64,000 nucleotides of DNA from Lutraria lutraria (taxonomy: Eukaryota; Mollusca; Bivalvia; Venerida; Mactridae), in assembly GCA_964023205.1 (NCBI GenBank), contig OZ026835.1, positions 10,002,414 through 10,066,413 on the forward strand, written 5' to 3'. Shown in pieces: positions 21,775 through 37,296 of the stretch (positions within the stretch are counted from its first letter, which is position 1; each line of letters begins with the position of its first letter). Both the position numbers and the translations under genes were made by a program. The notes under the pieces were generated by a model, which was given only the letters and a program-made list of their open reading frames with translations, made no database searches and was not told where the DNA came from.

Positions 21775-24700
21775 ATGATGTTTGGTCATAGACTGTTGAG
21801 AGTTTTAGTTACATTTTCTGTGTTAATAAATGTAGAATGTGGACAGAATTTGTTCAAGAACCCTGGTATGGAAGACCCTGATTTAATAGGGTCGTACGGA
21901 CATGCTTGGAATTACAAAGAGGAGAGGGTTTCGGATAGTTACAATGGGTCGTATGCGATGAAGGTGTCTGGGAGGTGAGACCATGCTTTGTATCAAATAT
22001 GCTTTGTTTGTTAATGTGTTGTTTGACGGCCCATACGACACCTATGTTCCTTTCAGGGCCGCCCCAAAGCGAGTGGGGATAAGATACAGGAGAACCGGGC
22101 ATTTTACATCCACACTCTTTTCGAATAGTTTTCCTTTTTTATCGTGCCCGGTGTAAAGCACCGATAAATGCCTCATCAGTTGTCCTGTTATTGTCTAGGG
22201 ACAGTACTGGGCTCGGTAGTTGGGTTTGGGACAATGAAAAGCGTCCCTGAAACAGCAGAAGGCGGAGCCCAGGTTCGAACCCACAAATTTCTGATTAGCA
22301 GCCACTCGACCACCGATCACCCCTAAATATGTTTCGTGTTTGGTTAAAGGTTAAAGGTCATCAGACTTAACAGCTGGGATTAATTGCTGATGACGTGTTT
22401 TTTTCTCGATAACATGCTTTAACTTTAGTCGCATGATAGGACAATGATTCGTCTATGTTTGCATGTATATGTAAGTTAAATACTTACATAGGTATCTTAA
22501 CATGCATTACATTTATAGATTTATAAAAACGTAATAAATCAAATAACAGAACAGAACAAAACTGAAAACTCTACAAAGTATTCTATATGTAGGACACAGT
22601 ATTGGATGGGGGTCGGTCAAACGGTTTCCATGAAGCAAAACACGCCGTATTCCGTCAGTGCTTACTTGAAGCAGATCAACAATAATACTAAAATGTGGCA
22701 AAGATATGAATTCTACGCCGCCTATCAATGGTCGGCTAACAGTAAGTATACAAGGGACGATCAGAAAGTTTGTGTAGCGGGTCTATACATGTAATTTTAT
22801 CATCCTTAAGAAAGTATGCATATAATGCATGATAAAAATTAAAAATAGCAATATTTTCTTAACATGTCATCTTGTATTTGTACAAAAGATCTTAAGATTT
22901 AAAATTATTAAGTATGAGATTGACCTTTTAGTACAATGTGCAGAATTATTAAATGAGATAAATGTCAATATAAATGATTGCATAATACATTTGTACAATT
23001 TAATCTGACCGGAATCCAGTGTAGTATTAAATGCGTTTTCCAATTAAAACACTTTTTACTATATTGCATGTACAATGTATATTACTTTTCAAGTACAATG
23101 TAGTTGTATTATATGTGCACACGAATTGCTCAAAATACTTACTTACATTTATTGCAATCATACTTCGTGGCTCGGAAATAAGCCGAAAGAGATTTTGAGT
23201 TTGGAAACCGATCTCAAGTTTTATAATCTCGGGGCCAGGTTTGGATGCATCTTGTTCATCTTTCAGACAGTGATAAACAATATGTTCAACTAGCCATGCA
23301 CAGTTTTGGTTCCACGGAAGAAGGCTGGTTCCGTCTCGGTGGGGATTTCACAACACCGTATAAAGGTTTGGGAAAATATGCGCTTTAGTTTTGATTATAC
23401 ATGTATATAGAAAATTAGTGCTTTACAAGAATATGATACAGTGTACGTACAATTTCAGTTTTCATTAACATGGCCACGCCCCATTATTTAGGTGTACATA
23501 TTCAGATAAGCACCAGCTAAGAGATAAGCATTGTATGTTGTTCAAAAATTATCCCTTTATCCAAAAACAAGATTAATTATTTGTGAAGCTCTATGAGACG
23601 TTTTGAGGGTCATTTTTATTGAAATAATATGTAACGCTAAAGGTTCGATGAATTTTTGTATCCCGATAAACATGTATACACTTTCTAACCCAGCACCTAT
23701 TTAATGGACAAACAACACACCTATACACTGACATGTAAGTTATTAAATGACAATCTTCTACATTTTGAATATGAATAGCAGACAAGTTTCATACTGCCGT
23801 ATACTGACGATAGAAATTTCATGGTTTCAGGATTCTATAGTGTCAATGTTTACATACAAGGACCTGATCCAGGTATAGAATTCCTTGTTGATGAGATGTC
23901 GCTGTATGAGATATCTGAAAATACGAATTGGAAAACGGAAGCTTTACAACGAATAGAAAATATCAGGAAAGCTGATATCACTCTGAGGTGGTTTGTTAAC
24001 ATTTTTATACAAAAAAATAATTTTCTATTTCGTTATTAGTCGATCTAATGTATGGATATATAGTTTTTCAAGTTAAAGTTCAAAAGTAAAGTACAGTAAA
24101 TGTAAATAAATACAGAATTACATGTTATATTAATCATCAGAGGTTATTAAATATTAATGTACAAACATATGATACAAGTACATGTATATAAACATTTACA
24201 AAAATGCATATGACATTTCATTAGTGAAGCTAATGATATAGTTCATATAGAAAATAAATACCAACAGTATGATCTCCACGTAGCTCAAATGTGTTTTATG
24301 TAACCATTGATCATTGGTGCGCTATGACTTAAAGTGATTATACCCCATTTATTTTTCATCTTAAGTGAACCTCAAAATATTCAATAAAGTCACTTTCCCT
24401 GAACATCTCTGTCTCTATTTCATCGTCTTGGTTATACATATGGTGAAATATGGATGTAATGAAGTGAGTATTAGGGTTTGAAGGAATTCACAATAACGGT
24501 GTTCTTCTGTATTCTTTTCAGTGTAAATGTTGCTGACAATCTGGACCCTAGACTTGTTGAATTAAATGTTAAACTCACTAACCACGAGTTTGCCTTCGGG
24601 TCTGTGGTTAGGAACGATTACATCGTAAATCCAGATTATAATCTATACCAGAATCGATTTTATCAGTTTTTTAACTGGGCAACAAACCAAGGATACAAAT

Positions 24701-36700: not shown

Positions 36701-37296
36701 CATTAACTTGTAACATTAGACAGTCGACAAGCAGCGGTTTAAAGCAGGGTGATACTGCCAGTATCATGTGTAATAACGCAGAAACTCTCGTCGGATGTTC
36801 CGTGTACTCTGAGGACGGGCGAACAGCAGGGGCAATTTCTGATAGTGAGTAATGGCCACTGTTAAACCACACTCCTTTTCATATTCAATATTTAAAGAAC
36901 ATGACACATTCGTTTGATTTACACCTTTGCTTGATTGTTTTGTTGTTGTTGTTGTTGTTGTTTTCAGAATCATAGTTATTATTGTTCTACTCCAATAGTT
37001 CATTTGTTAGAGTGATGCTGGGTAAGGTGTGAAACCCTGCCAGATGCACGCTTCACGTCATATATTTACTACATATGTGATCATTCGTACCATGCAATGT
37101 ACAAGAACATGTGATATACTAAATGCATGTATAATTTTAAATACAAGTAATATTTCAGCATAAATCAACATCAATTCTTGTATCTTTATAAATATTCGAT
37201 TGTACTTCAGGAAACAACACGTGCACTGCGGTAAATGGTCGAGAGAAGAGTTTGGGTGAACAAGGTGTAATTGCTATCGCCGTATGCTGTGCATAA
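21775..37296 (+). CDS. Secreted GH10 glycoside hydrolase fused to CBM and PCSK9 V-domain-like modules (17 exons)
   Basis: GH10 enzymes are retaining endo-beta-1,4-xylanases. Exons: 21775-21974, 22593-22741, 23267-23365, 23831-23987, 24522-24726, 25280-25335, 25744-25887, 26397-26568, 27367-27477, 28265-28480, 33395-33626, 33826-34058, 34385-34475, 34846-34974, 35832-35918, 36665-36844, 37211-37296. All phases join, giving 848 residues. Residues 1-23 are a signal peptide. About 24-175 is CBM4/9-like (NLFKNPGMED; GPDPGIEFLVDEMSLY). About 200-515 is GH10: GHNMFW (294-299), acid/base Glu346 in WDVNNE, GVQSH, nucleophile Glu448 in WVTE, WGFWD (482-486), NAAGQRYL. Next come a beta-rich segment (to ~580), a linker with eight His in 20 residues (597-616), then three modules (624-697, 704-769, 776-847). 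Each module has six Cys and ends in CC, and the first three Cys are always spaced 20 and 9. Module 3 (CCHAPSLTC, LVGCS) closely resembles human PCSK9's last module. ATG 21748 is an alternative start. The donor after exon 5 (GTCAGT) is non-standard. The substrate is inferred. Confidence 0.87.
22030..22325 (-). mobile_element. tRNA-derived SINE in intron 1 of the GH10 gene
   Basis: On the minus strand the head reads ggtgatcggtggtcgagtgg (box A) and gtgggttcgaacctggg (box B). The body 'ggtgctttacaccgggcac' and the 'gggccgtcaaaca' tail match copies at 9185-9390 and 25985-26190. Confidence 0.65.
25985..26190 (+). mobile_element. SINE body fragment in intron 7 of the GH10 gene
   Basis: Plus-strand copy of the same SINE body ('cacgggcacgaaaaag', 'ctattcgaaacaagagt', tail 'gtgccgttaaaca'). 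The tRNA-like head is absent, so it is 5'-truncated. Confidence 0.5.
26950..27245. repeat. Imperfect (ATC)n / (GAT)n microsatellite tract
   Basis: About 300 bp dominated by cat/atc triplets with many interruptions, in intron 8 of the GH10 gene. The Met/Asp-rich open frames on the minus strand are translations of this tract, not genes. Confidence 0.85.
27500..27660 (-). mobile_element. tRNA-derived SINE head (Leu/Ser-tRNA-like)
   Basis: Minus strand: gtggtcgagtggtggttaag (box A) then 'ctgacttcaaatcactg', and box B-like gtggattcgaggc. The arm between the boxes is long, as in a Leu/Ser-type tRNA. It lies just after exon 9 of the GH10 gene. Confidence 0.55.
27700..27875 (-). repeat. Dispersed repeat, inverted copy
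   Basis: Contains 'tcaaagtactgaaagtactc' and 'acttgctctgcaacat', the reverse complement of the element at 11640-11832 and 52620-52800. Confidence 0.55.
28066..28240 (+). repeat. Degenerate minisatellite with CACGTG cores
   Basis: About five to six copies of a roughly 30-35 bp unit built on 'cgtgttatcacgtgaattat' and 'ataatat'. It lies immediately upstream of exon 10 of the GH10 gene. Several copies contain the palindrome tcacgtga. Confidence 0.65.
29927..29932 (-). terminator. Polyadenylation signal of the nested SLC46-type gene
   Basis: AATAAA on the minus strand (tttatt on plus), about 93 bp after the stop codon at 30025. Confidence 0.5.
30025..31539 (-). CDS. SLC46-family MFS transporter (proton-coupled folate transporter-like), intronless
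   Basis: A multi-pass solute transporter of the major facilitator superfamily. The 504-residue frame is uninterrupted and starts at ATG 31539 (MVYKCLSEG). The first hydrophobic span is about residues 14-33 (ISLFLIQLIYFFF). An extracellular loop with Cys follows (NICTHL), then 'MHFTLYRVLVNVPTLFIGLF' and MFS motif A as GAWSDNYGRKLP (95-106). Further hydrophobic stretches are consistent with about 12 membrane spans in two halves separated by a charged loop (VKDTVREKEDILKE). The C-terminal tail is cytosolic-like, Ser/Glu-rich (AGEDSSEDGKSSSELSSE). The N-terminal layout and motif A match SLC46A1/A3-type proteins; mollusc paralogues are hard to separate, so the substrate is not assigned. The gene lies antisense within intron 10 of the GH10 gene. 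The lack of introns could reflect a retrocopy or a naturally compact gene. Confidence 0.88.
   Translation of the reverse strand: MVYKCLSEGRAMRISLFLIQLIYFFFNVGETMLDVTIRPHIVNLVCEQHFAMNICTHLTDFPEHNRVVQSDSGMHFTLYRVLVNVPTLFIGLFCGAWSDNYGRKLPMAIPSVGSIVAVIVYTASTKTKQWSILIVLAGTFLQGLFGKSAVITMAVNSYTSENSDVDDRTARLGRLLAMQYFGRCIGALLAGVMEFDIIIAFGVVGGIHLTGVLFVLFGVKDTVREKEDILKETSADSCSKNYFLHGVKSFFYIVTKQRPKEGRCLVILTIIICILHGINVTPHPDLLLFVVTSEPFNWSKSEYSYLLSFENISMGVALFLTLPLLSNYLNLTDADIMILGLIGQIVFSITIEFVTQYWGMYLLAFLWALSIIVRNCVRSILSKAVENNDLGKIFSLLSCLETISKILGPLIYLNIYGATLNTNRWIVFYVTSGVCLFTLSLSLIVKFRHESLVENKEITSLIEAGEDSSEDGKSSSELSSECSVDKETTKTSNSVAGYNTFTSN
35128..35265 (+). mobile_element. tRNA-derived SINE fragment in intron 14 of the GH10 gene
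   Basis: gaccgtggttgagtgatcat (box A-like) and gtgagtttgaatctc (box B-like) lie about 50 bp apart and are followed by 'aggaagtccattgg'. A related body phrase 'ggaagccattgggttcaaat' lies near 26751. Confidence 0.45.
36063..36215 (+). repeat. 30 bp minisatellite, 5 copies
   Basis: Five nearly identical copies of a 30 bp unit (ataggtatacatgtaacc plus aataaggagcat) in intron 15 of the GH10 gene. The first four are essentially identical and the fifth has a few changes. The period is a multiple of 3 and both strands are open, which creates repetitive false ORFs (GIHVTNKEHI on plus). Confidence 0.95.
36944..36963 (+). repeat. (TGT)n microsatellite
   Basis: Uninterrupted tgt triplets in intron 16 of the GH10 gene. 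Confidence 0.85.

Follow-up and report, generated by a model that had tools for sequence, protein, structure and literature searches.

The locus and its 17-exon gene

A 64,000-nucleotide stretch of the bivalve Lutraria lutraria (contig OZ026835.1, positions 10,002,414 to 10,066,413; hereafter the window) carries on its plus strand a gene that joins a glycoside hydrolase family 10 (GH10) enzyme to a tail of three six-cysteine modules. The tail closely matches the C-terminal V domain of PCSK9, and the gene and its counterparts are called GH10-V below. The gene spans 15.5 kb (21775-37296) and its 17 exons join into 2547 bases, or 848 codons and one terminal stop. The original prediction, made from the letters of the window, had proposed such a consistent-phase, 17-exon, 848-residue model; the open frame, the single stop and GT..AG borders at 16 of 16 introns bear it out. 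Placing the exon 3 acceptor at 23267 by alignment with homologs led to the identical protein. The Pfam scan used an 866-residue variant that differs from the 848-residue model only inside the CBM. From N to C terminus, the protein comprises a hydrophobic leader that appears signal-peptide-like by eye, a CBM4/9 module, the GH10 domain, a beta region, a His-rich linker and the three six-Cys modules, distributed over the exons as follows.

21775..21974 (+), exon 1: start ATG, signal-peptide-like N-terminus and start of CBM4/9, residues 1-67; Pfam CBM_4_9
22593..22741 (+), exon 2: CBM4/9, residues 67-117
23267..23365 (+), exon 3: CBM4/9, residues 117-150; acceptor from homologs
23831..23987 (+), exon 4: end of CBM4/9, residues 150-202
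24522..24726 (+), exon 5: start of GH10, residues 202-270
25280..25335 (+), exon 6: GH10, residues 271-289; 56 bases
25744..25887 (+), exon 7: GH10 with RGHNMFWG, residues 289-337
26397..26568 (+), exon 8: GH10 with acid/base Glu E346 in WDVNNE, residues 337-394
27367..27477 (+), exon 9: GH10 with Q416 and H418, residues 395-431
28265..28480 (+), exon 10: GH10 with nucleophile Glu E448 in VTEL, residues 432-503
33395..33626 (+), exon 11: C-terminal end of GH10 and beta region, residues 504-581
33826..34058 (+), exon 12: linker with 8 His (residues 582-623) and first half of V module 1
34385..34475 (+), exon 13: V module 1
34846..34974 (+), exon 14: end of V module 1 (CC 696-697), start of module 2
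35832..35918 (+), exon 15: V module 2
36665..36844 (+), exon 16: end of V module 2 (CC 768-769), module 3; matched by a hemichordate V query
37211..37296 (+), exon 17: end of V module 3 (CC 846-847), Ala, stop
37319..37324 (+), AATAAA: possible poly-A signal 23 bases past the stop; with 204 matches, such motifs abound in the AT-rich window

The linker holds 17 Thr, Pro or Ser among its 42 residues, besides the 8 His. A phase-1 intron lies seven residues ahead of the closing CC in modules 1 and 2 (34476-34845 and 35919-36664, after residues 689 and 761), and no intron occupies the equivalent position of module 3. The shared introns are possibly a trace of module duplication. Intron 15 also contains a minisatellite (36063-36218, 5.2 copies of a 30-base unit).

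Identity of the tail and of its fusion to GH10

Pfam models recognize both halves of the protein. GH10 scores above its curated cut-off (E 1.3e-29), and the proposed CBM4/9-like module is upheld by CBM_4_9 (E 3.5e-10, 40.8 bits against a cut-off of 25.9). The suggested search with PCSK9 V-domain profiles supports the identity of the tail: PCSK9_C1 (E 2.4e-19, 69.7 bits, cut-off 31.3) and PCSK9_C3 (E 4.1e-15, 56.2 bits, cut-off 26.7) both match, and PCSK9_C2 does not match module 2. PCSK9_C2 is equally unmatched in Mactra, Lingula, a chiton and the hemichordate protein P0129; because module 2 of PCSK9 is divergent, this model may be specific to PCSK9. The prodomain and peptidase S8 of PCSK9 are absent from the Lutraria protein, in which Pfam finds GH10 and CBM_4_9 and no PF00082.

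The 18 cysteines of the tail fall at 624, 644, 653, 678, 696 and 697 (module 1), 704, 724, 733, 752, 768 and 769 (module 2), and 776, 796, 805, 825, 846 and 847 (module 3). As first noticed, spacings of 20 and 9 separate the first three and a CC closes the module in every case, and the phrases CCHAPSLTC and LVGCS both occur in the translated protein. A search of solved structures with the final 229 residues gave 19 matches at E<=10, 17 of them PCSK9 entries (E 4e-19 or better) and two of them weak (E 0.46 and 1.3). The top match, 7anq (E 2.3e-20), covers query residues 3-228 and all three modules. The similarity exceeds the bare cysteine pattern, since the Lutraria and human PCSK9 V domains align at 74.7 bits and 500 shuffles with fixed cysteines averaged -0.7 bits and reached 10.9 at most. 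All 18 cysteines are matched in the alignment with PCSK9, and 30 of 31 V domains of GH10 proteins have the full set, the exception being truncated. A profile built from mollusc and Lingula V domains only retrieves 11 vertebrate PCSK9 proteins (E 2e-13 to 1e-22). The proposed check by structure prediction also came out in favour: the fold predicted for V in a relative superposes on that of PCSK9. From these comparisons of sequence, we regard it as nearly certain that the tail is a genuine V domain, homologous to that of PCSK9 and fused to GH10. The domain is not His-rich, with a median of 3 His in 37 GH10-V proteins and 4 in hemichordates versus 10 in 12 PCSK9 sequences. The histidines behind the name 'Cys-His-rich' are thus mostly a PCSK9 trait.

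The suggested search for this architecture in other molluscs was fruitful, with a V match following GH10 in 43 database proteins besides that of Lutraria; some of these matches are partial (for example P0026, P0029, P0031, P0052 and P0139) and that of P0042 is weak. Of 199 relatives found with a five-sequence profile, 120 were listed, and 34 of those listed carry PCSK9_C1 or C3. Carriers include the bivalves Mactra and Mya, the chiton Liolophura, and the gastropods Haliotis, Patella, Aplysia, Elysia, Lymnaea, Biomphalaria, Bulinus, Bradybaena, Candidula, Babylonia, Batillaria and Pomacea. Outside the molluscs, the brachiopod Lingula contributes five proteins. Three full-length carriers (P0003, P0004 and P0006) come from contigs of 2652, 2601 and 2554 bases holding 841-846 codons; given the 15.5 kb span of the window gene, these look like spliced transcripts. 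Their source tag, lgn, presumably stands for Logan assemblies. An erroneous joining of a GH10 gene to a separate downstream V gene, to which the 4.9 kb of intron 10 and the antisense gene within it might lend some credit, has a negligible chance of being correct in the face of the 43 other proteins with GH10 then V, the transcript-length contigs that carry the whole fusion, and an exon 10/11 junction whose sequence runs unbroken in all four aligned homologs, with the exon 11 stretch following that of exon 10.

The Lutraria genome was searched with the protein (728.5 Mb in 71 contigs, E<=0.01), yielding 33 exon-like matches. Sixteen are exons of the GH10-V gene itself, exon 6 (56 bases) alone being unmatched. 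The other 17 all fall within residues 146-574 and lie in five places, where GH10-like exons occur without a V match:

C9 near 3.86 Mb
C4 near 3.61, 35.05 and 45.31 Mb
C20 near 14.65 Mb

None of these 17 falls in V, and no V was detected in the 17 kb downstream of the nearest paralog, on C9. A hemichordate V query matched nothing but exon 16 (E 8e-10) and, more faintly, exon 12 (E 0.08) of this gene. Within the sensitivity of these searches, the genome thus contains a single GH10 gene with V and several without it.

Further open frames were noticed in the window, all of them antisense to the GH10-V gene. Within intron 10, a major facilitator (MFS_1) transporter frame (30025-31554, 509 codons stop to stop, E 1e-21) is apparently a nested, intronless gene. 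A helix-loop-helix frame (16246-16920, E 8e-16) precedes the GH10-V gene by about 5 kb, and a Tctex-1 domain frame (3290-3979, E 6e-24) is also present. Just downstream, the frame at 37695-37889 contains the phrase ATGHDRISSKLLK, a motif suggestive of a remnant of a reverse transcriptase of the kind lacking long terminal repeats (non-LTR).

Origin and spread of the V domain

Module profiles were scored with 55 of 58 V domains. PCSK9 modules 1 and 3 score best with the same-numbered profiles of GH10-V and hemichordates, module 1 by a narrow margin (45.8 bits with the GH10-V module 1 profile versus 42.8 with that of module 3). Module 2 of GH10-V pairs with hemichordate module 2 by profile-profile score (91 versus 73 for the next pairing), but on sequence scores the profile of GH10-V module 2 does better with hemichordate module 3 (44.7 versus 36.4 bits). 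PCSK9 module 2 has no good resemblance to any other module. The simplest reading, assuming vertical descent, is that triplication predates the split of the GH10-V, hemichordate and PCSK9 lineages.

In the V tree, built without P0026 and P0127, PCSK9 forms one clade (100/100), GH10-V including Lingula another (98/95), and the hemichordates a weaker one (81/78). The GH10 tree omits sequences with <220 matched positions (P0096, P0036, P0123, P0124 and the window fragment P0001); on 54 of its 125 rows, the V-bearing enzymes take two positions, Lingula and a mollusc clade (100/99). Nested in the latter is a V-less Dreissena protein (P0037, 486 residues). Two amphioxus GH10 proteins among the matches listed are without V. 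Early fusion with later losses and two separate fusions, in the lines of brachiopods and of molluscs, both fit the trees. A single clade of all V-bearing GH10s is rejected by an approximately unbiased (AU) topology test on those 54 rows (p-AU 0.019), and V starts 51-68 residues past the GH10 end in all five Lingula proteins versus 84-98 in 34 of 39 other fusions (Lutraria included). Both results speak for two events. However, the Lingula and mollusc V domains share their clade apart from hemichordates and PCSK9, V follows GH10 at the same location in both groups, and one fusion with losses in the V-less paralogs explains the data as well. We consider two fusions possible but somewhat unlikely.

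The V domain is also found away from GH10. The mollusc and Lingula profile retrieved 37 proteins, namely 13 GH10-V, the 11 PCSK9, nine hemichordate V-only proteins, one kringle protein and three others. The kringle protein, hemichordate P0137, has three kringles inserted within V module 1. Judged by eye, P0152 combines a V-like ectodomain with a Thr/Pro stalk and a membrane-spanning segment; it scores E 6e-14 with the V profile and slightly below both cut-offs in Pfam. Its label, MMETSP1385, we take to denote a microbial eukaryote transcriptome, and P0152 is apparently V on a protist membrane protein. Two further V-like proteins, P0150 and P0151, come from contigs of 11675 and 3922 bases. P0150 ends in a C-terminal Somatomedin B domain, and its repeats keep DGA or CxAxNG phrases, with only one CC, lying outside the repeats. 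The earlier suggestion that V is an older, mobile secreted module is supported by these carriers, with GH10, with kringles, alone and in PCSK9. By sequence, V is a mobile extracellular module, with a range beyond animals should P0152 be confirmed.

Six polar positions separate PCSK9 from GH10-V and hemichordate V, in an alignment that leaves out P0128 besides P0026 and P0127. D636, D637, D665, D743, N756 and N829 are kept in 28, 29, 32, 29, 33 and 33 of 34 GH10-V domains and in 9, 9, 8, 8, 9 and 5 of nine hemichordate ones, and each in none of 12 PCSK9 sequences. On a looser count of the 34 GH10-V domains, 28 have S..DD in module 1, 16 have it in module 2 and none in module 3. A claim of a signature lost by PCSK9 must be tempered, since CxAxN stays in its module 1 (12 of 12, against none in modules 2 and 3) and DG is present somewhere in modules 1, 2 and 3 of 3, 6 and 6 of the 12. 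The positions most widely common to PCSK9 and GH10-V are cysteines and small residues. As a tentative scenario, to which we give rather less than an even chance, V would be an ancient eukaryotic extracellular binding module that predates the protostome/deuterostome split and carries an imperfectly repeated polar site (S..DD, DG, CxAxN). Animals would have joined it to xylanases, to kringle proteins and to a subtilase; PCSK9 would have lost most of the site, except for the CxAxN of module 1, and reshaped module 2, on which degradation of the LDL receptor depends; and GH10-V and hemichordate V would keep the ancestral ligand. If true, that ligand would tell what the PCSK9 tail was made for.

A possible tether, and comparison with known systems

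The enzyme half is probably active, to judge from its residues. The two catalytic Glu and the (beta/alpha)8 fold of GH10 are present, with E346 and E448 where they had been predicted, and the closest solved enzyme is a xylanase. In the 41 of 44 V-bearing enzymes with enough GH10 for counting, E346, H418 and W299 are invariant and E448 is found in 40, the remaining one being a gap. K261 is less constant (31 of 41, with 4 gaps), and at Lutraria Q258, where the alignment is gappy, 78 of the 84 V-less rows (which include plants and bacteria) have Asn, versus 8 of 41 V-bearing ones. Substrate specificity may differ because these two columns vary.

In PCSK9, sorting of the LDL (low-density lipoprotein) receptor to lysosomes requires V and goes through a partner still called protein X, according to excerpts of PMC8551645 and PMC11119474; module 2 is described as key for the effect on the receptor in an excerpt of the latter. 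The APCbeta domain of the Toxoplasma perforin PLP1 is structurally similar to PCSK9 V and binds membranes, and the two are already grouped as a beta-prism subgroup, as extracts of PMC6294395 report. PMC5943054 makes no mention of PCSK9. We chose tethering as the likeliest role of V because binding is the common denominator of PCSK9 V and APCbeta. On this account, a secreted, probably active xylanase (CBM4/9, GH10, beta region and linker) ends in a genuine V domain whose modules would fold, as in PCSK9, into a pseudo-threefold, double-layered beta-prism. As a non-catalytic binding module, V would tether the enzyme to a surface (a receptor, the mucus or epithelium of the gut, or a glycan on food particles) and leave the xylan to CBM4/9 and GH10. 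The module itself would be ancient and extracellular, inherited by PCSK9 too. We moderately favour this explanation as a whole, a secreted and probably active xylanase with an ancient V as tether; taken singly, the tethering role is a suggestion with slightly less than an even chance.

The main competitor is a V domain that binds nothing and caps the enzyme with disulfides against proteases in digestive fluid. By likeness to PCSK9, nine disulfides are expected in V, a number that suits a cap, as do the near-invariance of the 18 cysteines and the prevalence of cysteines and small residues among the positions shared with PCSK9. Yet V-less paralogs are common among the matches listed, and the six conserved polar positions are more than a cap seems to need, so that we hold this account to be unlikely. 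Far less probable still is a role as in PCSK9, in which a bound receptor is carried to lysosomes and the protein regulates it instead of, or besides, digesting xylan. The domain, the fold and the sorting function of V in PCSK9 (in the excerpt of PMC8551645) are in its favour, but the module described as key there (excerpt of PMC11119474) is the one least like the others, and the catalytic residues of GH10 are retained.

Both domains are known, and these proteins already bear the Pfam labels in the protein collection, so that the pairing could have been noticed there; the architecture is new. In the titles and abstracts searched, with subscription journals thinly covered, no description was found of V outside PCSK9 or of a GH10-V fusion. 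This new arrangement of known domains changes the view of where the PCSK9 tail comes from, the portion of a drug target by which the LDL receptor is steered to lysosomes (PMC11119474 and PMC8551645, in excerpt). The carriers other than PCSK9 (molluscs, Lingula, hemichordates and perhaps a protist) form an outgroup that can separate inherited scaffold from PCSK9 inventions, and offer soluble proteins in which to seek the ancestral V ligand. For digestion biology, the genes of many molluscs reveal xylanase-like enzymes that carry a second non-catalytic module, so far uncharacterised.

Among known systems, the solved chain of the thermostable GH10 xylanase XynA (7d88) is without a V domain. The V-less CBM4/9-GH10 enzymes of molluscs (Pomacea, Crassostrea, Mytilus, Pecten and others) share the CBM4/9, the GH10 and the Glu pair, but are mostly of 550-580 residues and lie mostly in other clades of the GH10 tree. 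Nine hemichordate PCSK9-like proteins (Saccoglossus, Ptychodera and Glandiceps) have a complete three-module V in 260-321 residues, with no enzyme attached, unlike GH10-V. The V domain of PCSK9 itself (PCSK9_C1/C2/C3) resembles that of Lutraria in its three six-Cys modules ending in CC, co-linear throughout (E 2e-20). It differs in its module 2, in lacking the D/N positions in all 12 sequences and in its histidines (13 in human PCSK9 V versus 3), and sits on a subtilase where the Lutraria domain sits on a GH10 enzyme.

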